Origin: a virus
Direction: 5' to 3' (one strand)
IMG/VR virus record: IMGVR_UViG_3300043449_000726
Coordinates: 1-28,143 of that record
Length of the DNA: 28,143 bases
In this document: piece after piece, positions 2,912-28,143 of the stretch
Position numbering within the stretch: the stretch's first letter is position 1
Layout: each line of letters opens with the position of its first letter
The notes under the pieces: generated by a model
Told to the model about the DNA's origin: nothing
Databases searched by the model: none
Seen by the model: only the letters and a program-made list of their open reading frames with translations
Translations under genes and position numbers: made by a program

Positions 2912-4430
2912 CCCATTGGACCGGCTGATTGCTGCGATTTCCCCGGAAGCCGGTCTTCGCCGTGCGCAAGCGCGCCGCGTGCTGGCTTATTACGAAGCGG
3001 CCAAACCCGACAAGCTACGCAAGCAACGCCGAGAATCTGGCAGCGGTGATGCTGCCGTGACTCGCGCCGGGTCCGCTTTGCGCGAGCAAGCGCGCCATCT
3101 TGAACAAAACCACGACCTGGCACGCGGCGCGTTGCAGACATTGGTCGCCAACATCATCGGCCCGAACGGCATCGGCATTGAGCCACAACCGCATAACAGC
3201 TCGGGCGAGATTGATGATGATCTGGCCGCGCAAATTCTCAGCTTGTGGCGTGATTGGTGCGAAAAGCCCGAAGTCACATGGTCGCTCGACTTTCCCGGCC
3301 TGCAACGCCAAATCTGTCGATCCTGGCTACGCGATGGCGAATGCCTGGCGCAAGTTATCGAAGGTATGACGCCCTATCTGGATCACGGCACCCGCGTGCC
3401 GTTGAGCCTGGAAGCCATCGAGGCCGATCACCTACCGTGGGATTACAACGCCAGCAGCCCGTCGATTACAGCGGGCGTCGAGCGTAACGGTTGGGGCCGC
3501 CCGGTTGCGTTTCACCTCTACAAGCAGCATCCCGGCGATATCGGGCTGGCCAGCCTTTACCAGTTCGCGACTGAGACCAAGCGCGTACCCGCCTCGCGCA
3601 TGTTGCACGTCAAACTGGCTGATCGCATTCGCCAGGCGCGCGGCGTGTCGATCTTTGCCTCCGTGCTGGGCCGCCTAGACGACATCAAGGATTACGAGGA
3701 ATCAGAACGCATCGCTGCAAAAGTAGCTGCCAGTATGGCCGCATTTATTCGCAAGGGGTCACCTGATTTCTACGCCAGCGAAACCGACAACGAGCCGCGC
3801 GATCTGCGCTTCCGGCCCGGCATGATCTTCGATGACCTGTTACCAGGCGAAGAGATTGGCCTGATCGATTCAAAACGGCCCAACCCAGCGCTGGAACCGT
3901 TCCGCAATGGCCAACTTCGTGCCGTGTCATCCGGCATCGGTTGCACCTATTCCAGCCTCTCCAAGAATTACGACGGGACCTATTCCGCCCAACGGCAAGA
4001 GCTGGTCGAGGGCTGGGGGCTGTATGGCGTTTTGACCTCTGAATTTATTGCCCAGTTTGTCCGCCCTGTTTATCAGCGTTTTATTGCCACCGCCATTGCC
4101 TCGCGTCAATTGCGAGTGCCGACCGGAATTGATTTTGAATCACTGGACGACGCGCTCTATCTCGGTCCGCAAATGCCGTGGATTGACCCGCTCAAGGAAG
4201 CCAAGGCTTGGGAAACGCTGGAAAGCAACGGCCACGCCTCCGGGCCGGAAATCATCCGCCGCCGAGGGCAATCTCCGATGGACGTACTGGACCAAGAGTC
4301 CCGCTGGCGTCGCCTGGCAGAAGAAAAAGGCGTTTCACTGGCGCTCGGGCAGGGCGCTAGTCCCGCCGACCAGCAAGACGCCGACCCTATCAATACCGAC
4401 GCGCCCAGGGCGCTTCCGAGGTCTGCATGA
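2904..4430 (+). CDS. Portal protein (lambda gpB family)
   Basis: The dodecameric portal forms the DNA entry and exit channel and docks terminase and tail. The start at 2904 (MTNPLDRLIAAISPEAGLRR) gives 508 residues and overlaps the gpW-like stop by 8 bases; an in-frame ATG at 2832 would run through most of gpW and is unlikely. Family features include the N-terminal EAAKPDKLRKQRRESGSGDA region, LVANIIGPNGIGIEPQ, the wing segment FPGLQRQICRSWLRDGECLA, and the clip/stem part ISSGIGCTYSSLSKNYDGT-like, written here as VSSGIGCTYSSLSKNYDG. It ends in ATGA overlap with the protease-capsid gene. Confidence 0.94.
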   Translation: MTNPLDRLIAAISPEAGLRRAQARRVLAYYEAAKPDKLRKQRRESGSGDAAVTRAGSALREQARHLEQNHDLARGALQTLVANIIGPNGIGIEPQPHNSSGEIDDDLAAQILSLWRDWCEKPEVTWSLDFPGLQRQICRSWLRDGECLAQVIEGMTPYLDHGTRVPLSLEAIEADHLPWDYNASSPSITAGVERNGWGRPVAFHLYKQHPGDIGLASLYQFATETKRVPASRMLHVKLADRIRQARGVSIFASVLGRLDDIKDYEESERIAAKVAASMAAFIRKGSPDFYASETDNEPRDLRFRPGMIFDDLLPGEEIGLIDSKRPNPALEPFRNGQLRAVSSGIGCTYSSLSKNYDGTYSAQRQELVEGWGLYGVLTSEFIAQFVRPVYQRFIATAIASRQLRVPTGIDFESLDDALYLGPQMPWIDPLKEAKAWETLESNGHASGPEIIRRRGQSPMDVLDQESRWRRLAEEKGVSLALGQGASPADQQDADPINTDAPRALPRSA

Positions 4431-13992: not shown

Positions 13993-15387
13993 ATGGCTGC
14001 ACTCAACTTTCCATCCTCTCCCACGCTGGGCCAGACGCATACCGAGAACGGCAAGGTCTGGGTGTGGACGGGCTATGCGTGGGTGACGGAAGCCACGGGG
14101 CTGACGGCCAATGATATTGGCGTGACGGTACAAGGCTATGACGCGGATATTTCCACTGTTTCAGCCAGTCAGGCCGAGATGGAAGCCGGGACGGAAAGTG
14201 CCTTGCGCTCGATGTCACCGCTGCGGGTCAAGCAGGCGATTGATGCTCTGGCTCCACCCGTCACCATTGCTGACAGCACTAGCATCGACCTGACGCTGAC
14301 CGGCCAGCAGATCAGTGCAGCGGCAATATTCGGCACGACAAGTGGAACGGTGGCGGAAGGGAATCACGCGCATGCCAGCCTGTATCAGCCGCTTGATGCC
14401 GACCTGACAGCCATCGCTGGACTCTCAGGCACCACCGGCCTGCTGAAGAAAACCGCCGCCGATACCTGGACGCTGGACACGACGGCCTACACCACCAACC
14501 TCGGCACGGTCACCAGCGTTGGCGGCACCGGCACGGTCAACGGCCTGACGCTCTCTGGCACGGTTACTAGCTCAGGCTCACTGACGCTGGGCGGCACACT
14601 GGATTTGTCATCGCCACCGGCCATCGGCGGCACCACGCCAGCCGCAGGCACCTTCACGACTCTGGGTGCAACCGGCAACGTCACGCTGGGCGATGCGTCT
14701 GGGGATACCGTATCCCTGCGAGCCGGGACAGCTGCACTCCCCACGCTGATACCCAACGGCGATCCGAATACCGGGCTGTGGTTCCCTGCTGCGGATACGA
14801 TAGCGGCATCAACAGCCGGATCAGAACGCCTCCGCATCGACTCCTCCGGCACCCTGCTCCTCCGCCAATCCTCCAACGCAGCCAACACCTCCGTCTCCTT
14901 CAACACCACAGCCCAGAACGCACTGACGCTGGATTCGACAGGAGCGTTATTGGTTGGCGTTGCCACTAAGAATGCTGGATCAAAAGTTACTGTCGCAGAT
15001 TCTTTTGGGCTAAATTCAGCTGGAGCAAAAACGGTAGAAAGAGTGTTTGGCGATACGCTATCGGCGCGTTCCAGTATTATCGTGGATATCACGGGGGGTT
15101 CAGACAGCTCTTCGTTCTACGTTACGATACAAATGTCGGCGTATAGTGGATTTTTTGCAAACTATGCATATTCTGTGTATAAAAATAACTTTTGGACAAG
15201 TTATGGAGCGGCTGTTGTTAACTCACAGCTATCAACATCTCCAGCACTAACGGTTACACCAAATTTAGCTACCGCAGGAAGGTTAAGATTTACATTGGCT
15301 GGGACAAATATAACTGTAGCGACTACTTTAGTGAAAGTTATATGCACCTCTGTATCTGATCCGGTAATATCAGTCAGTTACACATAA
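13993..15387 (+). CDS. Tail fibre / receptor-binding protein with AT-rich tip
   Basis: Encodes 464 residues. The N-terminus FPSSPTLGQTHTENGKVWVW is a common virion-attachment motif of phage fibres. The shaft contains NHAHASLYQPLDADLTAIAG, PPAIGGTTPAAGTFTTLGAT and NTGLWFPAADTIAASTAGSE, all recurrent in tail fibres. The last 150 residues (from about 315) are different: codon usage and base composition change abruptly, with about 38% GC by hand count in 15121-15360 against about 67% in 14521-14580. The tip is therefore probably a recently acquired receptor-binding domain. It follows the other fibre gene by two bases. Confidence 0.78.
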   Translation: MAALNFPSSPTLGQTHTENGKVWVWTGYAWVTEATGLTANDIGVTVQGYDADISTVSASQAEMEAGTESALRSMSPLRVKQAIDALAPPVTIADSTSIDLTLTGQQISAAAIFGTTSGTVAEGNHAHASLYQPLDADLTAIAGLSGTTGLLKKTAADTWTLDTTAYTTNLGTVTSVGGTGTVNGLTLSGTVTSSGSLTLGGTLDLSSPPAIGGTTPAAGTFTTLGATGNVTLGDASGDTVSLRAGTAALPTLIPNGDPNTGLWFPAADTIAASTAGSERLRIDSSGTLLLRQSSNAANTSVSFNTTAQNALTLDSTGALLVGVATKNAGSKVTVADSFGLNSAGAKTVERVFGDTLSARSSIIVDITGGSDSSSFYVTIQMSAYSGFFANYAYSVYKNNFWTSYGAAVVNSQLSTSPALTVTPNLATAGRLRFTLAGTNITVATTLVKVICTSVSDPVISVSYT

Positions 15388-15403
15388 CAAGAGGATAAAT
15401 TAA

Positions 15404-15760
15404 ATGGCCGACTACAAAGAAACCACCGTCTCAGGCACCACATGGCAGCGGGCGCAGATGATTATTATCAGCAATCACTTGGGGCAAGTACCCACGGTGA
15501 CCTATCAAGAGGAAGAAATCCTCGCGCTCGACAGTGGCAACATCCAGCGTCCGCTGGGACAGTTAAGTTACACCATCGACCCGCTGGCCGAGATTGAGTT
15601 GGTAGACGTAGACACCCTGCTCCCTACCGGCGAAACCATCCCCGTCGCACTCGTTCACCAAGCCTTGTTCTCCGACTACATAAACCGCGCCAAAGCAAGA
15701 GATGAAGCGGCGAATGCGCCGGTTGAACCGGCTCCTGAAGAAACCCCAATTGAGGAATAA
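15404..15760 (+). CDS. Small conserved protein downstream of fibre
   Basis: Encodes 118 residues with a good AGAGGA site upstream. The sequence ADYKETTVSGTTWQRAQMII then TYQEEEILALDSGNIQRPLG resembles a protein frequently found just after fibre genes in proteobacterial prophages; its role is unknown to me. The C-terminal 20 residues are acidic and proline-rich (APVEPAPEETPIEE). A fibre-assembly role is suggested only by position. There is no membrane segment or signal peptide. Confidence 0.55.
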   Translation: MADYKETTVSGTTWQRAQMIIISNHLGQVPTVTYQEEEILALDSGNIQRPLGQLSYTIDPLAEIELVDVDTLLPTGETIPVALVHQALFSDYINRAKARDEAANAPVEPAPEETPIEE

Positions 15761-15762
15761 AT

Positions 15763-15912
15763 ATGCCTGAGCAAATCAGCCTTAAAACCGCCACTGTCAA
15801 TGCTGTCTTGCAATTTCTGGGAAGCCAACCATATCAGTCCGTCGCTGGTCTGATCCAGGCGATCCAGCAAGAAGCTCAAGGTCAGGTACAACCTGAAGAG
15901 GTGTCCGAGTGA
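15763..15912 (+). CDS. 49-residue hypothetical protein
   Basis: A small frame MPEQISLKTATVNAVLQFLG... of 49 codons lies between two accepted genes, starts two bases after the previous stop, and ends in a GTGA overlap with the next start. It is a soluble, helical, Gln-rich peptide (IQAIQQEAQG). Similar short proteins accompany lysis genes in other phages. Tight coupling and filled space are the main evidence that it is real; function is not recognised. Confidence 0.65.
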   Translation: MPEQISLKTATVNAVLQFLGSQPYQSVAGLIQAIQQEAQGQVQPEEVSE

Positions 15913-16169
15913 ATACCTTCCTGAGATGGGCCGCGATGATGCTGATTTCGGCTATCACCGATTACGCCTTGGACAAAGTGCAAGTCGAGCGCATCAAGAA
16001 TTTCATTGTCGCGCAGGCGAATGAAGCCATCAGCAATGCCATCAAGCACGAACGCGCTGCGGCACTCATCAAGGAAATGGCCGAGGACTTGTCCGATGTT
16101 GTGGTCGATTGGGTCATCCGCACCATCCTGTGGGTAGCGCGGGCGACGGGGCAGATTGAGGCACGCTGA
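15909..16169 (+). CDS. Hypothetical protein in lysis cluster
   Basis: Encodes 86 residues from a GTG that overlaps the previous stop (GTGA). The N-terminus is hydrophobic (LRWAAMMLISAITDYAL) and the C-terminal part (VVVDWVIRTILWVARATG) is an amphipathic or membrane-interacting helix, while the middle is charged and helical. It could be a peripheral membrane protein helping lysis, but no family is recognised. Its stop overlaps the next ATG as TGATG, which joins it to the lysis genes downstream. Confidence 0.6.
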   Translation: MNTFLRWAAMMLISAITDYALDKVQVERIKNFIVAQANEAISNAIKHERAAALIKEMAEDLSDVVVDWVIRTILWVARATGQIEAR

Positions 16170-16423
16170 TGGGCATCAAGCGCAAGATTGGACTGACGAC
16201 AGACACCGCTGGCGACCTCAAGGGCGCTGTCTACGGCATTTCTGCCGTCATCATCACAATGGAGCCAGGATGGGACCGGACGTTCCTGATCTCGCTGTTC
16301 CTGATTGTGATGGCCATCATCTCTTGGCTCACCGTTGGCAACATTCCTCCTGAAGCCGCCGAAGAACTGATGGTGGAAAAGGATTTGCGCGACGTGCTGC
16401 GGGAAGGCCGCGATGACGACTGA
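16169..16423 (+). CDS. Small membrane protein, holin candidate
   Basis: Encodes 84 residues with one clear transmembrane segment at about 38-57 (FLISLFLIVMAIISWLTVG) and a weaker hydrophobic stretch before it (GAVYGISAVIITM). The C-terminal 25 residues are highly charged and cytoplasm-like. It directly precedes and overlaps the endolysin gene, the usual place for a holin, the protein that opens the inner membrane at the lysis time. Holins are not defined by sequence, so this is inference from topology and position; other small membrane proteins nearby compete for the role. Confidence 0.55.
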   Translation: MGIKRKIGLTTDTAGDLKGAVYGISAVIITMEPGWDRTFLISLFLIVMAIISWLTVGNIPPEAAEELMVEKDLRDVLREGRDDD

Positions 16424-16961
16424 AGCCGCCGAACGGGCTGAGATATCCGCCTTCGTCAATTCGTTGTCGGAGGGCCGCGATTACACCACCCGTGCCGGGA
16501 CAGTCGCCGCCATCGAGTCGGAGTGCATCCGCCAAGGCATTGGCCTCAAAACCCAGATCGCTTATGTACTGGCGACGGTAGAGTGGGAGACCGCCGATAC
16601 CTTCAAGCCTGTCCGCGAGGCGTACTGGAAGAGCGAGGCATGGCGCAAGCGGAATCTAAGATATTTCCCTTGGTATGGCCGGGGATATTGCCAGTTGACC
16701 TGGGACTACAACTATCGTCGGTACCAGGAGATCCTCGGCATACCTCTGGTGGCCAATCCAGACCGAGCAATGGAACCCGCGATTGCCTGCTTCATTCTCG
16801 TTCATGGTTTCAAGCACGGTGTATTCACCGGCAAGAAAATCACCGACTACATCACCAAGGGCAAGACCGACTATATCGGCGCGAGGCGCTGCATCAACGG
16901 CACGGACAAGGCCGCAAAGATTGCGGCGATTGCGGTAAGGCGACTGAGGGCCATGGCATGA
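16413..16961 (+). CDS. Endolysin, glycoside hydrolase family 19-like
   Basis: Encodes 182 residues that cleave the peptidoglycan glycan strand at lysis. The GH19 (chitinase/lysozyme-like) pattern is visible: AYVLATVEWETADTFKPVRE around residues 50-69, with Glu59 the likely proton donor, the substrate-cleft motif GRGYCQLTWDYNY at 89-101, and the C-terminal DYIGARRCINGTDKAAKIAA at about 151-170. There is no signal peptide or SAR segment, so export should depend on a holin. The start at 16413 overlaps the upstream membrane protein by 11 bases; the stop overlaps the next ATG as ATGA. Confidence 0.87.
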   Translation: MTTEAAERAEISAFVNSLSEGRDYTTRAGTVAAIESECIRQGIGLKTQIAYVLATVEWETADTFKPVREAYWKSEAWRKRNLRYFPWYGRGYCQLTWDYNYRRYQEILGIPLVANPDRAMEPAIACFILVHGFKHGVFTGKKITDYITKGKTDYIGARRCINGTDKAAKIAAIAVRRLRAMA

Positions 16962-17056
16962 GCGACGAATTTCTCGATCAAGTCCTGATCGGCGTCGGCA
17001 TCGTGACCTGTATCGCCTTTGGCATCGCCGCGCTGCTGTATTGGGTGCTGTCATGA
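16958..17056 (+). CDS. 32-residue single-pass membrane peptide
   Basis: A 32-residue frame starting in the endolysin stop (ATGA) and ending in another ATGA overlap. After a short acidic N-terminus (MSDEFLDQ) it is one long hydrophobic segment (VLIGVGIVTCIAFGIAALLY). It could be a pinholin-like or accessory lysis peptide, or a small membrane protein of unknown role. Coupling on both sides and a lack of free space argue that it is expressed. Confidence 0.6.
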   Translation: MSDEFLDQVLIGVGIVTCIAFGIAALLYWVLS

Positions 17057-17397
17057 AACACCCAATCGACGAACTCATTGAGTGGGTCGTCGCCAGTGCG
17101 CTGTTCATGCTGTGTTTTTTCATTGCAGCGGCGGTGACTGGCTGCGCCACCACCGTAAAGCACGAAGTCCCGCAACTGGACACAGTGGGCGAGGCGATGA
17201 AGAAGATCGTCATTCAGGACGGCCAGAAGCCGACGCTGGCCATGCCGCCGATACCGCAGGAATGTGTGATCGACATTCGCGGCGATGTCATGGCCGCATC
17301 CTCGCAAGAGTGCGAAGACCTCATCAGATATTACTCGCGGGCGCGATCCTTGCTCAAGCCGGGTGCGCCGTTACCTGCCGCCCAACCGGCTCGCTGA
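17053..17397 (+). CDS. Predicted lipoprotein, outer-spanin candidate
   Basis: Encodes 114 residues from the ATG at 17053, chosen for its ATGA overlap with the preceding peptide; an in-frame TTG at 17041 is less likely. The N-terminus has a hydrophobic segment (ASALFMLCFFIAAAVTGC) ending in a lipobox VTGC with Cys31 as the lipidation site. The rest is soluble, with proline-rich patches (LAMPPIPQE, KPGAPLPAAQPAR), as in outer-membrane spanins such as Rz1. Spanins fuse the two membranes after the wall is cut. It is large for an o-spanin, so another lipoprotein function is possible. Confidence 0.55.
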   Translation: MKHPIDELIEWVVASALFMLCFFIAAAVTGCATTVKHEVPQLDTVGEAMKKIVIQDGQKPTLAMPPIPQECVIDIRGDVMAASSQECEDLIRYYSRARSLLKPGAPLPAAQPAR

Positions 17398-17459
17398 TGT
17401 ACCAAGAGAGGGAAGTGATGGCGGGACTGAAATGCACAGCAGGGTGGGTTCATAAATGA
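17397..17459 (+). CDS. 20-residue mini-ORF linking lysis genes
   Basis: A frame of 20 codons starts within the lipoprotein stop (TGATG) and ends in ATGA overlap with the next gene. It fills the only gap in this stretch, so it may be a peptide or simply a translational bridge that carries ribosomes to the downstream start. The product (MYQEREVMAGLKCTAGWVHK) has no recognisable feature, and chance cannot be excluded. Confidence 0.3.
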   Translation: MYQEREVMAGLKCTAGWVHK

Positions 17460-17701
17460 GCGAAACGTCAGAGATTAGCAAATGGGCAGGAGCGGGGATT
17501 GCCGTGCTTGCTGCAGCGGGTGGCTATATAGGCAGTGTGTCCAGTCAATCCGAAGATCAGGGGGCGCTGAAGCAAACCGTGGAAAACGTGGTGTTATCCC
17601 TGCGCGAGCATGATCATCGTGAGCGAGCCTTTGAGGAAGTCATCCGCGCTCAGATCAACGACATCGAAGCCAGAGTTCGCGTACTGGAGTCCAAGCGATG
17701 A
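17456..17701 (+). CDS. Membrane-anchored coiled-coil protein, inner-spanin candidate
   Basis: Encodes 81 residues. A single N-terminal membrane segment (about 9-28, KWAGAGIAVLAAAGGYIGSV) is followed by a periplasm-type helical coiled coil (GALKQTVENVVLSLREHDHR and FEEVIRAQINDIEARVRVLE). This is the topology of inner-membrane spanins such as lambda Rz, though it is shorter than Rz. With the nearby lipoprotein it could form the two-component spanin complex. The usual gene order is Rz then Rz1; here it would be reversed, so the assignment stays tentative. Confidence 0.5.
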   Translation: MSETSEISKWAGAGIAVLAAAGGYIGSVSSQSEDQGALKQTVENVVLSLREHDHRERAFEEVIRAQINDIEARVRVLESKR

Positions 17702-17847
17702 TATGGACGCTGGTGTTTCTTCTGTTGTGGATGGTTTTCAGGATGCTGCTGAATCTGCCTGTGCATGATCGGCAAGCAAAAAAGTCGATGCTGCATCACG
17801 GCGCGGCGAATGTCGTCACGCGAGTGAGCGAAAAACATCATGGATGA
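17698..17847 (+). CDS. 49-residue membrane protein
   Basis: A 49-codon frame begins in ATGA overlap with the previous stop and ends overlapping the next gene by 8 bases. Residues 2-19 (IWTLVFLLLWMVFRMLLN) form a transmembrane helix; the remainder is basic and His-rich. It is one more small membrane protein of the lysis region; no family is recognised. Confidence 0.55.
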   Translation: MIWTLVFLLLWMVFRMLLNLPVHDRQAKKSMLHHGAANVVTRVSEKHHG

Positions 17848-18049
17848 CGCTGACCGCGCTCAAGAAAACCTCGACCGGGCGATGCGCCGGTATCAGACGC
17901 GGCCTGCGCCGGTGCATCACTACCGGCTCTCGACGGAATGCGCGGATTGTGGCGATGACATTGCGCTGGCGAGGCTGAAGATATTTCCTTATGCAGTTCG
18001 CTGTGCGGAGTGCCAGGGCTACTTTGATAACAAGGTGACACGTGGCTGA
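17840..18049 (+). CDS. TraR/DksA-family zinc-finger protein
   Basis: Encodes 69 residues, the length of TraR-type proteins. Four cysteines at 34, 37, 55 and 58 form the DksA C4 zinc finger (CADC, 17 residues, CAEC), and KIFPYAVRCAECQGYF is very close to the family signature. The N-terminus MDDADRAQENLDRAM carries the acidic helix that TraR inserts into the secondary channel of RNA polymerase to mimic DksA plus ppGpp. It may alter host transcription during late infection. It sits, unexpectedly, between the lysis genes and the tape measure, and overlaps the latter by 8 bases. Confidence 0.88.
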   Translation: MDDADRAQENLDRAMRRYQTRPAPVHHYRLSTECADCGDDIALARLKIFPYAVRCAECQGYFDNKVTRG

Positions 18050-20753
18050 TCTTTCAAAAACCGTTGAAATCATCTTTGGGGCCAAGGACAACGTAACCAC
18101 GACCGTCAAAAGCCTTGAGAGTCAATTCAAGGACTTCGACGCGACTGTCAAGAATGTGGCCGCCCCGATGGCGGATGTGGCGAACAAGATCCTCGCGGTC
18201 GAAACTGCGGTCTTGGCACTCTCTGCGGCGTTTGTCGGCAAGGCGATTGACGCGGCTGGCACCTTTGGCGATTCCGTGCGCGAAATCGGCACCCTGTTTG
18301 GTGGCACGTCAGATCAGGTCGGGCAGTTCGGTATCGACATCCAGAATTATGCCGCGACCTCAACCCAATCGATTGAGTCCATCAACGGCGCGATCTACGA
18401 AGCCATTTCCTCGGGCGTTAAATACGAAGACTCCATCAAGTTCATCAATGAGGCCGAAAAGCTGGCCGTGGCCGGTCGGGCCGACCTGACGCAAGTCACT
18501 GACGTACTGACCGGCACACTGAACGCTTACGGGGCCAGCACATCCGAAGCCGCCAACTACACTGATGACCTGCTGACGGCGGTCAACCTCGGTAAAACCA
18601 CCGTTCCTGAACTGGCCTCATCTCTGGCCAATGTCACCTCGATTGCGGCAGCGGCAGGCGTGCCATTCTCTGATTTGTCGGCAGCGGTCGCGGGCGTCAC
18701 CGCCGCGGGCAAGCCCACGGCTGAAGCCATCACCGCCATTCGTGGCGTGCTGGAGACCTTCGTCTCGCCATCGGGTGCAGCGGCAAAGGCGGCGGCGGAA
18801 CTTGGCTTGAGTCTGGACACCACCACGCTGAAGTCGCAAGGCCTGGATGGGGCGCTGAAGCAAATCTACGAGGCCACCGGCGGCACCGTCGAAGGCTTGT
18901 CGCAAATCTTCACCACCACCGAAGGCTTGCAGGGCGCGCTTATTCTCGGCGCCGATAAGTCGGGCATCTTTGCCAAGGCTTTGGAGGAGATGGGCACCAA
19001 CGCGGGATTGACGGCCAAGTCCTACGAGACGATGGCGCAGTCTTTCGAGGTGGCCACCCAGCGCATGGTGAATGCCGCTGATGTGGCGATGATTAAGGCG
19101 GGCACGCCGCTGCTGGACGAGTTCGGTTCGGTAGCCGCTGGCATTGCCGCTGTCTTCGCCAATCTCGGCAAGTCGATTGACAGCGGCGCGTTCGACCCGA
19201 TTATCCAGGCGCTGGAAGCCTTCGGCCAAAGCATGGCCGGAACGCTGGAGAACATTGCCAAGAATCTGCCCGAAGCGCTGGAGCTGGTGGACTTTAGCCC
19301 GCTGGTTCGATCACTAGAAAGTCTGGGTGGAGAAATCGGCGATGCCTTCAAGAATGTCTTTGGCGAAATTGACCTGGATACTCCGGAAGGCTTGGCCAGC
19401 GCGTTACAGACCATCGTCAACGGCATTGCTGGCCTGACCAATGTCACCGCCGGCATCATCGATGGGCTTGACCCCATATTCAAGGCCTTCGGTGGTCTGG
19501 CAAACGCCAGCGTCGGGGCCGGGGAGGGCGCACAAAAGGCCATCGGCGAATGGCTCGCGGCTGCGCAAATCCTCACCGAGTTCGGCACTCGCTTGACTGC
19601 CACGCTGATTACCCTGGATGCGTTTGGCGCTGACTTCAGCCGCATTTTTGACGTGATTCTTGGAGCCATACGGGGATTCAGCAACGCCATTGAAATCGTG
19701 GTCGAGGGTATTTCAGCCGCCGTTCTGGGGTTCGTTTACAACATCTTCAACGCCCTGGGCAAATTGCCGGACGCCTTCGGCGGGGCCATGTGGCGCGATG
19801 CCGCTGAAAGTGTCAAAGGCACCTTCAATAACTTTGCGCTGGCCGTTCAAAACGACATCAATGACCTCGATGAGGCCGGCAACCAACTTATTCGCGGACT
19901 GCATGGAGTCGGTGACGCCACGGGAGATGCCGCTGAAGGGATTGGCGCGGTCGGAACCGAAGCAGGAAAAGCGGCTGAACAAGGTAAGGCTTTCGTCGGC
20001 ATAGACTGGGGCCAATCGGCCACCGGCATCGACTATGTGGGCGAAGCCGCCAAACGTCTCGGTCTATCACTGGATGCCAGCGGACCGTCTGCCGAAACCT
20101 TCGGCAAGTACGTCAAAAGCGCCGCTGACGAAGCCGACATTGCCCGCGCCAAAACCAACGGCTACAAGCTGGAGATTGACGAACTCGGGAATCGCACCTT
20201 CATCCCGGTCATCGAAGGCACCAAGAAGACGGCTGAAGAAACCAAGAATGCTGCCAAGGAAATGGAAGCCGCCGCGAAACAGGCGGTTGACTATGACCTG
20301 AAGCTGCAACAGATCGCCAGCGCGGAACGCATCGCCTACATCGAGGCGAAATTCAAAGTGGACGAAGCGCAGATCCAGGCGGACGCGCAAAAGGTCGTCG
20401 CCGCCTTTGAGTCGATCAACACCTCGATCACGTCTACCGGCGAAACCCTCACCGGTCTGGTCGGCAGCTGGGCGGCACTGGCTGGAACCTTTGAGGGGGC
20501 GAAGCTGTGGGACTTGATCGAAAACGAGGAGAAGCGGCGACAGGAGGCATTCGAGCAGCAGAAAATCCTGTTGGCCGAACAGATCAAATATATGCAAGCC
20601 CGCACCACGGCGATGCTGAAAGGCGACACGCTGTTGAAGGTGGAAGCCGCTGGCCTGACGCCGCACCTCGAACGCATCTTCCATGAAATCCTTCGCGCCT
20701 GCCAGGTGAAAGCCAACGAGCAGGGGCTTGAACTGTTACTGGGGGCCACCTGA
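18042..20753 (+). CDS. Tail tape measure protein
   Basis: Encodes 903 residues from a GTG at 18042. It occupies the tube lumen and sets tail length; at about 1.5 angstrom per residue, tail length should be near 135 nm (estimate). The N-terminal third resembles the TP901-type tape-measure core: AGTFGDSVREIGTLFGGTSD, DLTQVTDVLTGTLNAYGAST, TTVPELASSLANVTSIAAAA and FSDLSAAVAGVTAAG. The middle (about 480-600) has hydrophobic helices able to enter the host membrane, such as IEIVVEGISAAVLGFVYNIF. The C-terminal part (about 725-870) is a charged coiled coil. It lacks any peptidase or lysozyme domain that I can see. Confidence 0.93.
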   Translation: MADLSKTVEIIFGAKDNVTTTVKSLESQFKDFDATVKNVAAPMADVANKILAVETAVLALSAAFVGKAIDAAGTFGDSVREIGTLFGGTSDQVGQFGIDIQNYAATSTQSIESINGAIYEAISSGVKYEDSIKFINEAEKLAVAGRADLTQVTDVLTGTLNAYGASTSEAANYTDDLLTAVNLGKTTVPELASSLANVTSIAAAAGVPFSDLSAAVAGVTAAGKPTAEAITAIRGVLETFVSPSGAAAKAAAELGLSLDTTTLKSQGLDGALKQIYEATGGTVEGLSQIFTTTEGLQGALILGADKSGIFAKALEEMGTNAGLTAKSYETMAQSFEVATQRMVNAADVAMIKAGTPLLDEFGSVAAGIAAVFANLGKSIDSGAFDPIIQALEAFGQSMAGTLENIAKNLPEALELVDFSPLVRSLESLGGEIGDAFKNVFGEIDLDTPEGLASALQTIVNGIAGLTNVTAGIIDGLDPIFKAFGGLANASVGAGEGAQKAIGEWLAAAQILTEFGTRLTATLITLDAFGADFSRIFDVILGAIRGFSNAIEIVVEGISAAVLGFVYNIFNALGKLPDAFGGAMWRDAAESVKGTFNNFALAVQNDINDLDEAGNQLIRGLHGVGDATGDAAEGIGAVGTEAGKAAEQGKAFVGIDWGQSATGIDYVGEAAKRLGLSLDASGPSAETFGKYVKSAADEADIARAKTNGYKLEIDELGNRTFIPVIEGTKKTAEETKNAAKEMEAAAKQAVDYDLKLQQIASAERIAYIEAKFKVDEAQIQADAQKVVAAFESINTSITSTGETLTGLVGSWAALAGTFEGAKLWDLIENEEKRRQEAFEQQKILLAEQIKYMQARTTAMLKGDTLLKVEAAGLTPHLERIFHEILRACQVKANEQGLELLLGAT

Positions 20754-21118
20754 TGCTCGTCGCACTGGAATCCTACGTCTTCGACCCGGTGGGCGCCATC
20801 GTCATCGATGCGCTGCCCGATTCGGAACTGTCCGCGTCCACCCGGCGCGTCAGCCGCACGGCCACCCTCGACGGCAACGCCGCGCTGATCGACAACGGCT
20901 GGACCGCCGCCGATTCGACTTTTACCATCGAGGCGCATCTGAGCCAGCCGGAAGAAGCCACAGTGCAGCATCTGGTGCGCGTCTATCCCGAGGTGATTTG
21001 CAGCACGTCCACCGGCTGCTACCTCGGCGTCATCGAGTTCGTCCGCCGTACCACCAACGGGCGCATCGTTATCAGTTTTCTCATTCAGCGGGCCTTGTCG
21101 CTGACTTCCGATTTATAG
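20753..21118 (+). CDS. Small tail protein after tape measure
   Basis: Encodes 121 residues, starting within the tape measure stop (TGATG). It is beta-rich, with VALESYVFDPVGAIVIDALP, then RRVSRTATLDGNAALIDNGW and TNGRIVISFLIQRALSL. Position after the tape measure is that of lambda M or of distal tail proteins, and a tail-tip adaptor role is reasonable. I do not recognise the family with confidence. It ends with a good ribosome site (AGGAG) for the next gene. Confidence 0.55.
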   Translation: MLVALESYVFDPVGAIVIDALPDSELSASTRRVSRTATLDGNAALIDNGWTAADSTFTIEAHLSQPEEATVQHLVRVYPEVICSTSTGCYLGVIEFVRRTTNGRIVISFLIQRALSLTSDL

Positions 21119-21128
21119 GAGACCCACC

Positions 21129-21914
21129 ATGCCAGCCATCAATCTTGCCTACCTTGAGTTTCGTCTGTCCGGTGGTGCGTCCAACGCAGACCCCGATGCT
21201 TCCTTGGGTGGCGTCATGTCATCAACCGCCATTCGTTCGGCCTCTGCCACTGGCCTCTCCAATATCAGCGGCTTGACGATTCTGGACGCCCCAGGGTCTG
21301 CAAGTGGCAACGGAACGCTGGCATGGGACATCACCGGGGGCACTTTGACATGGACCCCAGCGGGCGGCAGCTCGGGCGATCCGATTGTCATTGCCGAGGA
21401 TGGCCGTTATGCCATACCGGGGAGCGAAGGCCATCTCTACGTCGAAGCGGTTTATTCGTCACTGCCAGCCCAGTCGGAAAGCGACACGATTGCCGTGACG
21501 CCGATTGCCAATGCGCTTTGGGACAACATCGGCAAGGCTGAAGCCTTTGCCGGCGATGTTGAATACCGCTGCGCCTACATCACCAACGTCCACCCGACCG
21601 ATCCATTTATCGGGGCGAAGCTGTTTATTGGCAGCCAGCCGACCGGCGCCGATACGCTGGCGCTGGCATTGGATCTGGCTGGCATCGGTGACGGCTCCAG
21701 CACAGGCGTAGCCGATACCGTGGCCGATGAAAACACAGCGCCCGATCCTTCCCTGACCTTTGCTGCTCCAGCGACACTGGGGACCGCTTTAACCGTGGGC
21801 CAGTTGGCCGCGGGCGATGCCATTGCTTTCTGGCAGCAGCGAACGGTCCCGGCCAATACGCTGACCTCAACACCAGAAGATCGCTCACACCTCATCATCA
21901 ACGCAGGCTATTGA
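21129..21914 (+). CDS. Virion-associated protein (unknown)
   Basis: Encodes 261 residues. The first half opens NLAYLEFRLSGGASNADPDA and is low in charge; the second half contains ALWDNIGKAEAFAGDVEYRC and AYITNVHPTDPFIGAKLFIG, a pattern I have seen in phage structural proteins located between tape measure and tip genes. The end (GDAIAFWQQRTVPANTLTST) reads like a beta domain. A tail or baseplate component is likely; no enzymatic motif is seen. It has its own AGGAG site, one of few in this otherwise overlapped operon. Confidence 0.55.
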   Translation: MPAINLAYLEFRLSGGASNADPDASLGGVMSSTAIRSASATGLSNISGLTILDAPGSASGNGTLAWDITGGTLTWTPAGGSSGDPIVIAEDGRYAIPGSEGHLYVEAVYSSLPAQSESDTIAVTPIANALWDNIGKAEAFAGDVEYRCAYITNVHPTDPFIGAKLFIGSQPTGADTLALALDLAGIGDGSSTGVADTVADENTAPDPSLTFAAPATLGTALTVGQLAAGDAIAFWQQRTVPANTLTSTPEDRSHLIINAGY

Positions 21915-21915
21915 T

Positions 21916-23067
21916 ATGACCACCAACGTCAAAGTATTCAAATCCACTGACGCCAATGCGCCCACTCTGGCGGGGACGGCGGCCTATCTCATCAACGTCC
22001 TCGATGCGGTACTGGTCAATGGGTACAACAGCCAGACGGTGACGATTACCCGCGATGGCACGACCGCCACAGCCAGCGCATCGGCACATGGCTTCTTGCA
22101 AGGGCAGTGCCTGTTGATTTCAGGCGCAAGCCAAAGCGAATACAACGGTGAGCATTACATCACCGGCGTGACCGAGAATGCCTTTACCTTTACCGTCAGC
22201 GGTTCCCCGGCGACTCCAGCTACGGGCACCATCACGGCGAAGATGGCGCCGGCAGGCTGGGTCAAGTCTTTCTCTGGCACCAATAAAGCCGCATACAAGA
22301 TGGGCGGCGGCAATGAACGGTATTTGCGGATTGACGATGCCGGTGGAACCTCGGCCCGCGTGGTCGGCTATGAGTCCATGTCCGACGTGGATACCGGCAC
22401 GGCGGCATTCCCGACAGCCGCGCAGGTCTCCGGCGGGCTGTATATCAACAAAAGTTCGGCAGCGGATACTGCCGCCAGGGTGTGGATTGTGCTGGCCACT
22501 GACCGACTGGTTCATGTGTTCATCAATGGCGCCGCCACGAATGGGCAACTCGCCTCACTGGCGACTTTTGGCGATATCAAGAGTTACGCCGGGAGCGATC
22601 AATACGCCACCCTCATCATTGCCTCGCCTAGTTATTCGGCAACAGCCGTCGGCAGCTATAACCAAGCCACTGCATCGGCGGCTTATGGCACGACATTAGC
22701 CAGTCACTACATCGCCCGCAGTTACACGCAAGTCGGCGGGAGTGTGGCAGTCGGCAAGCATGGCGACGCGGCCAAGGCCAAATCACTCACGGCGCAACTC
22801 GGTGGGGCAGGACTGACCTACCCCAGTGAAACCGATGGCGGGCTGTATATGACGCCGGTCTATGTGCACGAAACATCTGCAATGCGCGGAGTGATTCCTG
22901 GCGTGTGGGGGCCGCTTCATGTAAGACCACTGACACAGCTGGATACGGTCAGCGGGTCTGGCTCATTGGCTGGAAAAACTTTTATTGCGCTGAATACCGA
23001 TGGCACTTCTCCGGCAGCGGCCAATGGGCAAATCTTCCTTGAGACCTCCAACACCTGGGATATCTGA
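21916..23067 (+). CDS. Tail structural protein with inserted beta module
   Basis: Encodes 383 residues. The outer framework starts with APTLAGTAAYLINVLDAVLV and resumes at APAGWVKSFSGTNKAAYKMG, followed by YLRIDDAGGTSARVVGYESM and HYIARSYTQVGGSVAVGKHG. Between them, at about 39-110, is a small module (SASAHGFLQGQCLLISGASQ then AFTFTVSGSPATPATGTITA) that I recognise from many phage structural proteins as an independent beta domain. It is probably a tail-tip-associated virion protein. The stop overlaps the next ATG as TGATG. Confidence 0.58.
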   Translation: MTTNVKVFKSTDANAPTLAGTAAYLINVLDAVLVNGYNSQTVTITRDGTTATASASAHGFLQGQCLLISGASQSEYNGEHYITGVTENAFTFTVSGSPATPATGTITAKMAPAGWVKSFSGTNKAAYKMGGGNERYLRIDDAGGTSARVVGYESMSDVDTGTAAFPTAAQVSGGLYINKSSAADTAARVWIVLATDRLVHVFINGAATNGQLASLATFGDIKSYAGSDQYATLIIASPSYSATAVGSYNQATASAAYGTTLASHYIARSYTQVGGSVAVGKHGDAAKAKSLTAQLGGAGLTYPSETDGGLYMTPVYVHETSAMRGVIPGVWGPLHVRPLTQLDTVSGSGSLAGKTFIALNTDGTSPAAANGQIFLETSNTWDI

Positions 23068-23480
23068 TGGCTGACGCAGGCGCTATTGCAATCAACCGGC
23101 CTAGTGCCATCGCCATGCCATTGTCGGTATGGGCAGCTGGCGGCAGGACAGTATCACCACTTACGCGGTCAACCGCTATGCGTCAGAGGCTGGCAGTCTA
23201 TGCCGCCGATACCACAACCCTGCATCTTTATCCTCGCAATGGGCGGATTGCAGGCACAGTACAGTCAGCTGGGCAAAGTCTCGCGGGGAAGTTTGTCATG
23301 CTGATTTATAGGGACTCATTCCGAGTCGTGACCACCACTCGCACGAATGACGCTGGCAATTTTGAGTTTGAAGAACTTTGGGAGGGCGGCAAATACTTGG
23401 CCGTGACGATGGAATCACTGGAACCGCAACCGACTCAGAACGCTGTGGTCGCTGATTACCTGACTCCAGTTATCACATGA
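23067..23480 (+). CDS. Protein with carboxypeptidase-regulatory-like Ig domain
   Basis: Encodes 137 residues. Residues about 58-125 (GRIAGTVQSAGQSLAGKFVM, then RTNDAGNFEFEELWEGGKYL) follow the pattern of a carboxypeptidase regulatory-like beta-sandwich, a domain that often mediates carbohydrate or protein contacts on phage tails. The N-terminal 50 residues are basic and not recognised. It is coupled to both neighbours (TGATG and ATGA) and probably belongs to the tail-tip complex. Confidence 0.55.
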   Translation: MADAGAIAINRPSAIAMPLSVWAAGGRTVSPLTRSTAMRQRLAVYAADTTTLHLYPRNGRIAGTVQSAGQSLAGKFVMLIYRDSFRVVTTTRTNDAGNFEFEELWEGGKYLAVTMESLEPQPTQNAVVADYLTPVIT

Positions 23481-24424
23481 GCTACACGCCTGACATTGGC
23501 AATGCGGTCACGCTGGAGTTTTCCGGCAGTTATACGCCGACGGTTGGCTCGTCCGTCATTCTGGACTTCACGTCCAGCCTGGTTTACGCCAGTGCGCGAT
23601 TTGGCCAGGTTTGGTCATTAGCCGCCCCTGTCTTTGCCGACGCGATCAGGCCGCAAAAATGGTCATTGTCGGCTTTGGTGTTTGCCGACTGCAAGCGGCA
23701 TCAGGCGTGGTCGTTGTCAGCCCTGCAATTCATCCCATCGGGGTTTTATCAGGCGTGGCAACAGCAAGCGCCGGATTTCACGAATGCTCAACACGATCAA
23801 CAATGGGGGTTGGTCAGCTATCAAACAGACAGCGCGCATATCTCGCAGCGCTGGGCACTGGAGGCGCCCGCCGTCTGGACCAAAGTCGTCAGCTCAACCG
23901 CCTATCTGTTGAGCCTCGAACAAGGCGAAGACAGCACCGAAATCCCGATGGCCAATTTCTCCGGCCAGTTTCGTTCGGGTGAACCGTCCTACATCCAGTG
24001 CGGCATTCCGAATGCCTGGGAATGGGCGGATACCGTCGCGGCGTATGCGGCGCAGGAGGACACCGAGATTGTCATCAATGCCGGATACCGCTGGTCCGAT
24101 GACAGCTACACCACCCAAGAGATTGCCCGTGTCACCTTGCGGAATGTCCGCTATGACTACGGCGCACGGTCGGCCTCCGTCTCGCTGGATGGCGTCGACA
24201 CCCGCACCAATCCAGCACCGAAAGCCATCACACTGACCGGGGCCAGTTACATCAACCAGGACAGCGACGGACGCTTGCGCTATCGAGTCACGCCTCAGTT
24301 TGACGTGAGGCCCGGTGATACCGTCACCGTCGGCAACGATACCTTCGTCGTTGGCGAACTGTCCTATCAGGTCAACGCCAGCGGGGCCAGCATGGAAGTC
24401 GCCGAACTGATCGAGTCCGTCTGA
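23477..24424 (+). CDS. Tail protein with 16-residue Q-x-W repeats
   Basis: Encodes 315 residues. It opens with two tandem 16-residue units of type SYTPxxGxxVxLxF (2-17 and 18-33). A second array follows, with tryptophan at 46, 62, 78, 94, 110 and 126, each preceded two residues earlier by glutamine, so the period is exactly 16. The rest (about 137-315) is a beta-rich tail domain with EIPMANFSGQFRSGEPSYIQ and VTPQFDVRPGDTVTVGNDTF, similar in style to tail-hub proteins. It lies just before the large tip protein and is probably part of the same complex. Function is inferred from position. Confidence 0.6.
   Translation: MSYTPDIGNAVTLEFSGSYTPTVGSSVILDFTSSLVYASARFGQVWSLAAPVFADAIRPQKWSLSALVFADCKRHQAWSLSALQFIPSGFYQAWQQQAPDFTNAQHDQQWGLVSYQTDSAHISQRWALEAPAVWTKVVSSTAYLLSLEQGEDSTEIPMANFSGQFRSGEPSYIQCGIPNAWEWADTVAAYAAQEDTEIVINAGYRWSDDSYTTQEIARVTLRNVRYDYGARSASVSLDGVDTRTNPAPKAITLTGASYINQDSDGRLRYRVTPQFDVRPGDTVTVGNDTFVVGELSYQVNASGASMEVAELIESV
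23606..23893 (+). repeat. Six 48-bp repeats coding Q-x-W units
   Basis: Six consecutive 48-base units each encode Gln-x-Trp followed mostly by Ser/Ala-Leu and Ala; Trp spacing is exactly 16 residues in all six. DNA copies are diverged (for example CAGGTTTGGTCATTA, CAAAAATGGTCATTG, CAGGCGTGGTCGTTG), so the array is old and kept by protein structure rather than recent duplication. Confidence 0.85.
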
Positions 24425-27400
24425 TGGGCAAGGGCGTCATTGTCGAACATCTGGGCGATGCCCATTACCGCATCGGGCTTGATATCGATGTCAGCTATGC
24501 CCGCGACCAACTCGCGGCAATCGACCTCTATCTGGCTGAGTTTGCCCAGAAATACCAAGAAGCCACCAACGTCAAGAACGAAGCACAAGCCGCCCTCGCG
24601 CCGATCAATACGCGGCTGACCGAATACCTCGCCGAGGCGCAAGCAGCCAGCCAGGCGGCTTACGATGCGATGGTGGCGGCGTATGACGTGTGGGTAGATG
24701 CTGTGGCGAATCAGCCAGACCCGGAAATTATCGCGCCACTGCGCGAGGCGATGGATGTCTGGTTCGACGGCTTCGCCACCACTCACAACGATTACATCCT
24801 GGCGCTGGATGGGGATGAACAGGCGCCGTTGCCGATACCGGATGCACTGGAAGCCCGCACCCACGCACTCCAGCAACTAACGCTGGCAATGGGTGACTGG
24901 CTCGGTGCGGTCGGCGTGCTGATTGATCCCGCCGCCGTCAATGCCGCCTTCGACGCGCTCGGCCTTGCGCTGGATGATTTCGAGGCAGCGACCGTCGCCT
25001 ATGCCGCAGAACCCGGTAATCCGACGCTGAAAAGCGCGATGAATTACTACCAGGGCGTCTACGAGTCCGCGCATTCCGACTGGGTGAAGGCGGTAGACGA
25101 CAACAGCGGCGATGAATACGTCAAGGCCGCGCGTGATGCCTACGATGCCGCTGCTGAAACCTTCGACGCTGCCCGCGAAGCACTCGGCAAGCTACTGGAC
25201 AACGGCGGGATGCCGCCTGAATTGGCCGATATCATGGCCGAACAGGAGCGGGCCTATGCCACCTATCACGGCGCGCTGCAAAACTGGCAGAGCATGACGC
25301 TCATCAAGACGGAAAAGGAAACGGCCAAGGCGGAATTGATGTCGCGGCTTTTGCCGTACACCAACAATGACGGCGAACCCGTCCGCCAATCTGTCAATGC
25401 CTGGTGTTGCGATGCCACCGAGGATATCGCGGTGGGTGCTGAAGTGGCCACCATCGAGATACCCGGCGAACGCGATCTGGGTGTGCGTGTCCGTCCGGCT
25501 TATGAATCCCGCGAAACCTACAGCGCGGCCCGTGATGGCAAGCTGCAACCCAGTTGGTCGTCATCACCTGAAGCCACCTATTGGAATTGGGCCTTGCACC
25601 CCGGCAACGCCCGCTGGAATCCGAACTATCGGCTGGGCGAGATCCTCTTCATCGATCCGCTGACCGACAAATGCACCGTTCAACTCGACCCGCAGCGCAA
25701 CAACGAAAAGTCCCGCGCCCGCGATGGCCGCACGCTGGATGTCATCAATCCGCTGAAATATCAGATCGACCCCGACACGGGTGAACAGACGCCGATCCTG
25801 CCGGGTGACAATGTGCAGGTGGCCGATGGCGTCACCACGCTGACGGATGTGCCCATCGAATACATGGAATGCAACGCCGCCGTGTTTGAGGTGGGCGACC
25901 ATGTGATGGTGGAGTTTCAGAATCGCGACTGGAAACAGCCCAAGGTGATCGGGTTTGCGGAGAATCCGAAACCCTGCTTCATCCATGGGCTGATGATCCG
26001 CACAAGTTCAGGTTTGGCAGCTGATAGTGGCGCAGAGATCATTTATCCAAGAAAAACCCAAACCGCGCTGGGTTATGAGTTTCAACATCGCAAGTATGAC
26101 AACGAAGCCGTGGCCGGATATGTCACCTGGGTATCGACGGATGGGAAGACTGTTTTAAGCTGGAACGGGCCGCGCGGGCGCTATTTCCCGCAATCTTCAG
26201 ATGGCATCAGTTACCAGTCGTCCAATCCCAGCGGCGTTGATGGCCATTTGTATTACGTCATGAAAAACCCTGACGTTATCGAGCAGCCAGAGAATGATTT
26301 TGTCTTGTCCCTATATTACGCGGCAGATGATCGAAATCGGGTTTACAAGGACAAGCGTATTTACGCACAGCCGCCGATCCCATTCGATCAGGCAGTTCTT
26401 GGCGCCGCCGAGGTGGATGCGACAGACGAAAATGGACGCACCACCTGGCTGATGATTGTTGTCAGCACCCTCGCCGCACAACCAGGCGGAAAGTGGTACT
26501 TCCAGTTTACCTATGGTCAGCCAGATCCAGCACAGGCCATCAGCGTATACGCCAAGGCGATAACAACTACGGCGGGGGCATCAACGGAATGGGTCAAGAT
26601 AGCCGAGGATGATTTGTCCTCCGTGCCGGGTACGATCCCGACTAATAAATGCGCGTTTTTCTCAGGAAATGCTGACAGATTTGCGCTCTTGGTTCCGCGC
26701 GTTAAACCATCTGATCGAACGACACAGTTTGGCGATGTGGCCTTTGGTAATGCGTTTGAGGTGATGAATGACGCCATCGTGCGCGGCGCGTTAACGCTGA
26801 CCTCGACTGCTGTCACCTGTGAATTGACGGTGACAGAGCAAGAGGACGCGTCCATCATCGGTAGTTACTTCGGAAACTGTACAGCAGATGGTGCAGACGG
26901 ATATGTTCTGAATGAATCCTACTCGTACAGCGGAACCAATAGCGCGATAGTCGCCATTGATTACGATGGCGCCACGGAAAAGCAACTTATCGCTACCATC
27001 AGTTGCAGCGCGGCGGGCACTACTAACAAATCAGAAAAAGGCTACCGCGAAGACTTCCTAAGCGATTACAGCCTATCCGCCAGCGAATCGCACAGTGGCA
27101 CCGCGACTTTCAGGCTTGAAGACCAGGACGGAAATGTCATTTGCGAGTATGAAGACGTGGAATCCCGCGATTCATCGACATCACATGTGGAGCCGTCTGG
27201 TGAAACAACGTATGCCAATCAAACCATCAGCGTTACGGTCAACCGCTCCGGTCGCTTGCCGCTTTACTATGATTTGCGGGATGGTTCATCTCTTTTCGTA
27301 GAGCATGAAACCACGGCAGTCAGCACGATTACCCGTAATGCAGATGGCGAAAATGTGGCGGCTGATGTGCAATACACCACATGGCTGACGGATGGCGCAT

Positions 27401-27933
27401 CGGTCTGGGGGCATTACACAAAATCATCTGACCTGCCCACGCAGGAACGATCCTATCTTCTTGGGATCGGCTACTACGACTATGGATTGAACTGGGGGCG
27501 CGGAGTCAATGATGCGGTGGCCACCCTCGTAGAGTTCAACCATGCAAGCGCCAGCGACGCGGCCAACGCTATAAACATCCCGCAGGGTTATCAAATTGGC
27601 CCGCTTTTCCGTAACGCGCTATGGGTTCGGATGTGGGGGACGGGTTCCGGCGATGTGCTGGCATCGGTCGGCGCCTATCTTAGTGTTCATTCCATTGCCT
27701 TGATGCCATCATGGCCAGGTGGCGTATTTGTCACGCTGAACAACTCCAAGGGCGCCATGATTTGGGATGAATACAGCACCATCCCTAATGAGGGATACAC
27801 CATTGACCAGCAATGGCGGCTGACAGACCACGACCTCAATGCCATCTGGGGCGAACATCTGGCCCAGCACCCTAACTGGGAGGGCGGGCCTGAGTTTATC
27901 GACGCGGTTTATCAGGTGGTCGGCAACGTCTAG
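24424..27933 (+). CDS. Large coiled-coil tail-tip protein
   Basis: Encodes 1169 residues, the last gene of the tail operon and in the place of lambda J. The start GKGVIVEHLGDAHYRIGLDI begins a small strand domain, then residues about 20-310 are a long Ala/Glu-rich helical region (ATNVKNEAQAALAPINTRLT; KAARDAYDAAAETFDAAREA). Residues about 320-515 are a beta domain with an OB-like end (EVGDHVMVEFQNRDWKQPKV). From about 515 on the protein is Ser/Thr-rich, beta-type and less GC-rich (47-52% in two 60-base hand counts against 67% early in the gene). It should be the tip or central fibre, possibly contacting the receptor. It lacks recognisable J signatures. Confidence 0.7.
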   Translation: MGKGVIVEHLGDAHYRIGLDIDVSYARDQLAAIDLYLAEFAQKYQEATNVKNEAQAALAPINTRLTEYLAEAQAASQAAYDAMVAAYDVWVDAVANQPDPEIIAPLREAMDVWFDGFATTHNDYILALDGDEQAPLPIPDALEARTHALQQLTLAMGDWLGAVGVLIDPAAVNAAFDALGLALDDFEAATVAYAAEPGNPTLKSAMNYYQGVYESAHSDWVKAVDDNSGDEYVKAARDAYDAAAETFDAAREALGKLLDNGGMPPELADIMAEQERAYATYHGALQNWQSMTLIKTEKETAKAELMSRLLPYTNNDGEPVRQSVNAWCCDATEDIAVGAEVATIEIPGERDLGVRVRPAYESRETYSAARDGKLQPSWSSSPEATYWNWALHPGNARWNPNYRLGEILFIDPLTDKCTVQLDPQRNNEKSRARDGRTLDVINPLKYQIDPDTGEQTPILPGDNVQVADGVTTLTDVPIEYMECNAAVFEVGDHVMVEFQNRDWKQPKVIGFAENPKPCFIHGLMIRTSSGLAADSGAEIIYPRKTQTALGYEFQHRKYDNEAVAGYVTWVSTDGKTVLSWNGPRGRYFPQSSDGISYQSSNPSGVDGHLYYVMKNPDVIEQPENDFVLSLYYAADDRNRVYKDKRIYAQPPIPFDQAVLGAAEVDATDENGRTTWLMIVVSTLAAQPGGKWYFQFTYGQPDPAQAISVYAKAITTTAGASTEWVKIAEDDLSSVPGTIPTNKCAFFSGNADRFALLVPRVKPSDRTTQFGDVAFGNAFEVMNDAIVRGALTLTSTAVTCELTVTEQEDASIIGSYFGNCTADGADGYVLNESYSYSGTNSAIVAIDYDGATEKQLIATISCSAAGTTNKSEKGYREDFLSDYSLSASESHSGTATFRLEDQDGNVICEYEDVESRDSSTSHVEPSGETTYANQTISVTVNRSGRLPLYYDLRDGSSLFVEHETTAVSTITRNADGENVAADVQYTTWLTDGASVWGHYTKSSDLPTQERSYLLGIGYYDYGLNWGRGVNDAVATLVEFNHASASDAANAINIPQGYQIGPLFRNALWVRMWGTGSGDVLASVGAYLSVHSIALMPSWPGGVFVTLNNSKGAMIWDEYSTIPNEGYTIDQQWRLTDHDLNAIWGEHLAQHPNWEGGPEFIDAVYQVVGNV

Positions 27934-27973
27934 CCATCACCACAACTGCGCTGCCAGATCGATGCTTTTATTT

Positions 27974-27997
27974 GATATTTTATCGATTCAAAATATC
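27974..27997. repeat. AT-rich palindrome between converging units
   Basis: A perfect 8-bp inverted repeat, GATATTTT / AAAATATC, with an 8-base spacer follows the last tail gene by about 40 bases. It lies at the junction between + strand and - strand reading frames and could serve as a weak bidirectional terminator or a protein-binding site. Its stem has few GC pairs, so a strong intrinsic terminator is unlikely. Confidence 0.55.
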
Positions 27998-28059
27998 CGC
28001 TGTGACTCCGCATAAATCTGCACGGCCTTGGTAGCGACCTCTAGCACTTCAGCGTTCAT
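27988..28059 (-). CDS. Very short ORF, possibly truncated
   Basis: A minus-strand frame of 23 codons starts at 28059 with a GGGAG upstream and overlaps the end of the preceding minus-strand frame by 11 bases. The stretch ATKAVQIYAESQ resembles the beginning of small phage DNA-binding proteins that continue into a helix-turn-helix, but here a TGA within the palindrome ends it. It may be a truncated gene or a chance frame. Confidence 0.35.
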   Translation of the reverse strand: MNAEVLEVATKAVQIYAESQRIF

Positions 28060-28143
28060 CGTTTTCAACTCCCACAAACTTCCCACAGCTATCCTTAAAA
28101 CTGGCCCACGCGACCGGCGCATCATCACCCATCCAGCGGATAG
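28049..28143 (-). CDS. C-terminal end of a minus-strand gene (partial)
   Basis: A minus-strand frame enters from the window's right edge and ends at 28049 after 30 residues (RWMGDDAPVAWASFKDSCGK, then FVGVENDER). Composition is protein-like, and its stop overlaps a following ATG with a ribosome site, so it is plausibly the end of a real gene of an oppositely transcribed unit. Too little is present to name it. Confidence 0.45.
   Translation of the reverse strand, partial: IRWMGDDAPVAWASFKDSCGKFVGVENDER

Follow-up and report, generated by a model that had tools for sequence, protein, structure and literature searches.

A 16-residue Q-x-W repeat array at the N terminus of a predicted phage tail hub may form a length-tunable arm

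In the IMG/VR virus record IMGVR_UViG_3300043449_000726, we find a tail-module gene whose product opens with two YTPxxGxxV units and six Q-x-W units, all with a period of 16 residues, and continues into a predicted hub domain. We analysed the stretch from position 1 to 28,143 (28,143 nucleotides, hereafter the window). To explain the array, we propose that the protein is a gp27/VgrG-like tail hub with a solenoid arm made of the two YTP and six Q-x-W units, which would act as a length-tunable stiff spacer for a host-contact module. We give this explanation about an even chance of being correct.

Results

An earlier note on this DNA had described, in a tail protein placed at 23477-23893, six Trp spaced exactly 16 residues apart, each with Gln at -2, behind two 16-residue SYTPxxG units. 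In the translation of 23477-24424, all six Trp (Table 1) have Gln at -2, the triplets being QVW, QKW, QAW, QAW, QQW and QRW in order along the 315-residue protein. When the residues were shuffled 20,000 times and periods of 5 to 40 were considered, the longest in-register Trp run was five (two shuffles) and a run of six never occurred. Gln makes up 6.7% of the protein, and the chance of finding it at -2 in six out of six units is ~9e-8 from composition alone. The autocorrelation over residues 32-130 is highest at lags 16 (z 11.1) and 32 (z 8.9), all remaining lags being at z 2 or lower. The SYTPxxGxxVxLxF units lie ahead of this array at residues 2-15 and 18-31, again exactly 16 apart. Comparing their phase with that of the Q-x-W units gave an unconvincing match, and we do not claim that the two repeats are the same. 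The described pattern is thus borne out by the translation and the shuffles. The assignment to the tail also stands, but the gene extends to 24424 and encodes a predicted tail hub.

The units of the window agree with each other at 14-28 of 48 DNA bases, and Tandem Repeats Finder (TRF) detected no tandem DNA repeat over the array. We thus conclude that the register is kept at the protein level and does not stem from recent DNA duplication; it is old and maintained by selection on the protein.

Searches of Pfam, PHROGs and the sequences of solved structures yielded no family for the array; in the earlier note, too, the repeat was not recognised as a named family. The array has the Q-x-W motif in common with the (QxW)3 ricin-type beta-trefoil lectins, which carry it every ~40 residues in three copies. 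We rejected this family, as the spacing here is 16 in six to eight copies and Pfam gave no ricin match. Choline-binding or GW-type Trp repeats consist of a ~20-residue GWxxxxGxWYY unit and were rejected as well (period of 16 in the window, no such Pfam match).

For the whole product of 23477-24424, Pfam and PHROG profiles gave no significant match; tail hubs diverge beyond the reach of profiles of this type. We modelled the protein with AF2, using an alignment with the homologues L002 and L194 and two hub fragments that is three sequences deep over residues 1-140. The hub part of the model is of moderate confidence. Foldseek and VIA-align matched it to many tail hubs (Z 8-12.5 over ~140-173 residues; best Z 12.5 over 173). 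With VIA-align, the model of residues 136-315 scored highest against the hubs of HFTV1 (Z 12.5), phiCD508 (12.3) and Pa193 (11.9), and further matched VgrG1 (10.9), Mu gp44 (10.8), T4 gp27 (8.7) and T5 pb3 (7.1-7.8). The window protein is thus like T4 gp27, Mu gp44, T5 pb3, the HFTV1 hub and VgrG in its predicted fold (residues 137-315) and its place after the tape measure; it differs from them in the small size of the hub (~180 residues) and in the N-terminal repeat array. In most of the aligned hub structures, unlike in the window protein, the matched part begins at most ~20 residues from the N terminus. Since the predicted fold is hub-like and the gene lies in the tail module, the product is most likely a tail hub, a minimal gp27/VgrG-like one, and the array an N-terminal extension of it. 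The earlier note had placed the array next to the tail tip, without recognising it as an extension of the hub.

Table 1. Features of the tail module in the window
Feature	Positions	Strand	Basis or remark
Tail tape-measure protein	18042..20753	+	PF10145 2.8e-30; phrog_991 2.8e-56
gB, small tail gene after the tape measure	20753..21118	+	Homologues in PS3, L099, L101, L103
gC, phrog_13135	21129..21914	+	Found before the array genes of L055 and L247 as well
gD, phrog_9998/phrog_9600 (tail assembly)	21916..23067	+	
gE, carboxypeptidase-regulatory (Ig)-like domain	23067..23480	+	PF13620 2.4e-5, below its cut-off
Predicted tail hub gene with N-terminal repeat array	23477..24424	+	315 aa; ORF and homologues L002, L194, L099-L103, L247, PS3
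Two 16-residue YTPxxGxxVxLxF units, residues 3-34	23483..23578	+	Same doublet opens other phage tail proteins in ~9 contigs
Six 16-residue Q-x-W units, residues 33-128	23573..23860	+	W46, 62, 78, 94, 110, 126
Predicted gp27/VgrG-like tail hub domain, residues 137-315	23885..24421	+	AF2 blocks mostly pLDDT 50-80; VIA-align
gF, 1169-aa tail-tip protein	24424..27933	+	N-terminal part conserved, C-terminal part diverges fast

The gene order of the window (tape measure, gB, gC, gD, gE, hub, gF) is partly common to Marinobacter phage PS3, MW202621, L103, L115, L117, L121 and L247. Directly upstream of the array gene lies gE in the window, and at that place L194 has a LamG-like gene; L055 has a LamG-like gene two genes upstream of its array gene. 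In L247, phrog_13135 and tape-measure genes are found upstream of the array gene. A near-identity search of 15000-28143 in phage records gave no match.

Some further features were observed elsewhere in the window. The C-terminal part of gF (26000-27933) has ~45-55% nucleotide identity to L097 and the N-terminal part 85-97%; the C-terminal part is likely a fast-diverging, receptor-binding region. The tape-measure gene is otherwise well conserved, with a local drop to 37-64% identity with L097 at 19451-20050. At 4427-6442, an ORF of 671 aa looks, from its sequence, like a fusion of a ClpP-like protease and a major capsid protein. The predicted protein of 699 aa at 11891-13990 contains a short GxY stretch that resembles collagen, and its gene lies among fibre-like genes before the tape measure.

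We next turn to the homologues. The closest, L002, is 83% identical to the window protein and retains all six Q-x-W triplets at a spacing of exactly 16. The array outpaces the hub in divergence between the two (40 of 97 residues differ in the array vs 9 of 187 across the half with the hub; dN 0.31 vs 0.026, dS 1.76 vs 0.39), yet every Gln and Trp of the six triplets is kept. The higher dS of the array may reflect its exchange by recombination. L194 (54% identical) has eight units, with Trp at 42, 58, 74, 90, 106, 122, 138 and 154, all 16 apart, and Gln at -2 in six of them. A WTKV-S-TAYL stretch links array and hub, as in the window. L194 is among the matches listed for the WxL pattern scan, and the number of homologues with an array is to be read as 'at least'. 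Reading each frame showed that the scans for QxW, WxL and YAL patterns had mostly picked up DNA microsatellites or repeats that are out of frame, and these matches were discarded. Plasmids, searched at the protein level for the hub domain, gave no match, and a first scan of genome contigs gave no relative.

Across the 20 units of the window, L002 and L194, Trp is present in 20, Gln at -2 in 18, Leu at +2 in 16 and Phe at position 5 in 12. Among 96 array positions, 24 do not vary between the three homologues; these are mostly Q, W, L, F and P and keep a fixed register. Whether homologues keep the Trp spacing had been named in advance as a test of the repeat, and the spacing is exactly 16 in both L002 and L194; it recurs with Tyr in place of Trp in L247, L243 and L055. 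The question of varying copy number, raised at the same time, is answered by six units in the window and L002, seven in L247, eight in L194, 26 in L243 and 47 in L055.

In some relatives, the hub is joined to a LamG domain. Marinobacter phage PS3 and its relatives (L099-L102) encode a homologous hub at the same gene position, preceded by an N-terminal LamG-type part where the window has the YTP/Q-x-W array. PS3 thus combines LamG and hub without an obvious array, which indicates that the arm is not essential to the hub. L247 has all three parts: LamG, then seven LNQRYAL-type units with a spacing of 16 (last gap 17), then a hub domain that can be aligned to that of the window at 27% identity.

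Arrays of this period also occur on a second type of protein. L055 and L243 encode array proteins with a common C-terminal domain, phrog_26502 (Pseudomonas phage KPP25 type), which has a solved relative (chain 26gp_Q). The L055 protein (1523-4318, minus strand) is a 931-aa tail-tip protein with 47 units, and 41 of its 46 spacings are exactly 16; L243 has 26 units (25 picked by script and one within a 32-residue step). The units read NQSWAL at the start and DxxYAL further on. The best fit of the unit profile of the window family to the units of L055 is obtained in the phase where Trp corresponds to Tyr (z 5.1; equalled by 14 of 20,000 column permutations). A comparison of the two arrays with hhalign gave no match (probability 0.1), so that their homology rests on the phase agreement, the motif and the neighbouring genes.

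Further arrays were found in other proteins. L045 (1463-3301, minus strand) contains Q-Q-W units, most of them identical to their neighbours at 45-48 of 48 bases. Behind these units come degenerate VTTALKLP repeats and a domain in common with gp94 of Vibrio phage SIO-2. The Q-Q-W array is a recent amplification, showing how whole units can be added. N-terminal arrays are further present in SIO-2 gp94 and MW202621. A scan for paired YTPxxGxxV units 16 residues apart detected ~9 phage proteins that open with two such units, for example MAYTPPAGNAVNFNF...YTPPAGNAVDFSF; these continue with other unit lengths (11/22 in L121, 21 in L117, 43 in L115), and several of the genes stand ahead of a long tail protein. 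The L121 protein (4905-6035; 377 aa) opens with two YTP units, continues with a QAQTL array of 11/22-residue period and has no evident hub domain. The array of the window is one case of a wider habit, in which short-unit arrays are placed on the N termini of hub and tail-tip proteins.

Lastly, we considered the structure of the array. For residues 1-140 of the window protein, where the alignment is three sequences deep, AF2 gave pLDDT values of 25-34, by which disorder is neither shown nor excluded. We also modelled 192 residues of the L055 array, phase-aligned with the arrays of the window, L002 and L194. One of the five models folded (mean pLDDT 52) and the other four had pLDDT 25-34. The nearest solved fold to the folded model is the flat parallel beta-helix of SufB/SufD (VIA-align Z 13.8, 2.4 A over 173 residues), where a Z near 13 can, for repeats, reflect merely a common arrangement. 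The functions are unrelated, the identity is 4-5% and the likeness comes from a low-confidence model. Curli and other beta-helices match more weakly, and the matches to viral structures are poor.

An AlphaFold model of ice-nucleation proteins gives one solenoid coil per 16-residue repeat, with a ladder of Tyr (PMC9418140). These proteins are like the window array in the exact 16-residue unit, the variable copy number and the fixed aromatic residue per unit. They differ in their consensus, AGYGSTQTAGEESSLT, and the window array is much shorter and more diverged. We rejected membership in this family, as the AGYGSTxTAGxxSxLT consensus is absent and Pfam gave no ice-nucleation match, but the two may work alike. 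The regular spacing had led the earlier note to a solenoid or stacked hairpins with a ladder of Trp. From the low-confidence L055 model, which is the direct support, and the analogy to ice-nucleation proteins, our best reading is that the array would be a flat beta-solenoid with one coil per unit.

Discussion

We suggest that each 16-residue unit would form one coil of a flat, two-sheet beta-solenoid. With one unit per coil, Gln and Trp would thus come to lie one above another, in an identical position from coil to coil. Gain or loss of whole units would set the length of the arm, which, assuming 4.8 A per coil, would measure ~3 nm at six coils and ~23 nm at 47. Hubs of the gp27/VgrG type are trimers that form a ring where the tail tube ends, and the hub predicted here is expected to be a trimer as well. 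In HFTV1, the N terminus of each hub subunit is the attachment site of the tail fibres, which point outward at ~45 degrees (PMC12494034); an array at that end would thus give three rods per tail tip. So placed, the three arms would spread outward from the hub trimer, one from each N terminus, as stiff spacers. Since the number of units varies and their length is fixed, the natural role of the array would be that of a stiff spacer evolving in 48-bp steps. The arm would carry or dock a host-contact module, namely the LamG part in L247 and the product of the separate LamG-like gene in L194 and L055. The position of LamG at the outer end (L247) or in a nearby gene (L194, L055) suggests that the module held out is glycan-binding. 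In the window, the outer end of the arm would be the two YTP units, and the docking partner perhaps gE or gF.

Other readings of the array can be weighed against the same data. Hubs are trimers, and the array might fold only as a trimer, as a triple beta-spiral or a similar intertwined fibre on the three-fold axis of the hub. Single-chain AF2 failed on the window array, which would fit such a fibre, and the A-P-x-F...W-x-L units recall the alternation seen in shafts of this kind; the adenovirus fibre shaft is a triple beta-spiral of 15-residue repeats. However, spiral shafts tolerate loops of varying length, whereas the spacing here is near-perfect at 16 across 47 units. The sole regular model that we obtained looks like a single-chain beta-helix, and a fibre running along the axis from the N terminus of the hub could, as we infer, meet the tape measure in the lumen. 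We consider a trimeric fibre unlikely.

A role in binding rather than in spacing is quite improbable in our judgement. Exposed rows of Trp and Gln could bind a glycan or a polymer of the cell wall, as choline-binding or lectin-type Trp repeats do, and the array is indeed most constrained at Trp and Gln, lies at the tail tip and diverges faster than the hub. Yet no lectin or cell-wall-binding family matches it, Tyr takes the place of Trp throughout the L247 array and in most units of L055, and the residues between the Q-x-W triplets are more variable than a shared ligand site would suggest. Moreover, relatives carry a separate LamG domain able to do that job. The pLDDT below 35 over residues 1-140 could also point to a low-complexity, mostly disordered linker from the YTP units to the hub, but a low pLDDT is uninformative with three aligned sequences. 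The composition is on the folded side of the charge-hydropathy boundary (0.476 vs 0.413), the invariant array positions keep a fixed register, and a linker would not need exact 16-residue units, so that we hold a disordered linker to be very improbable.

Tail hubs are well studied, but how host-contact modules are held outward is known mostly from a few model phages. In the literature, we found no mention of the YTPPAGNAV string, nothing describing such arrays on hubs and no experiment on these proteins. Beyond the solenoid arm proposed for the window, siphophages could have a general class of copy-number-tunable beta-solenoid arms with 16 residues per coil, on the hub N terminus and on a second tail-tip protein, in which 6 to 47 coils, changed via 48-bp units, match the reach of host binding to the cell surface. 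We put this generalization forward tentatively and think it somewhat more likely to fail than to hold. It would join scattered, unnamed phage proteins in one architecture: the hub with a YTPP array, the hub with LamG and array, and proteins of the phrog_26502 type, which carry up to 47 units. If true, units of equal length, changing number and fixed register would be a simple means of tuning reach.
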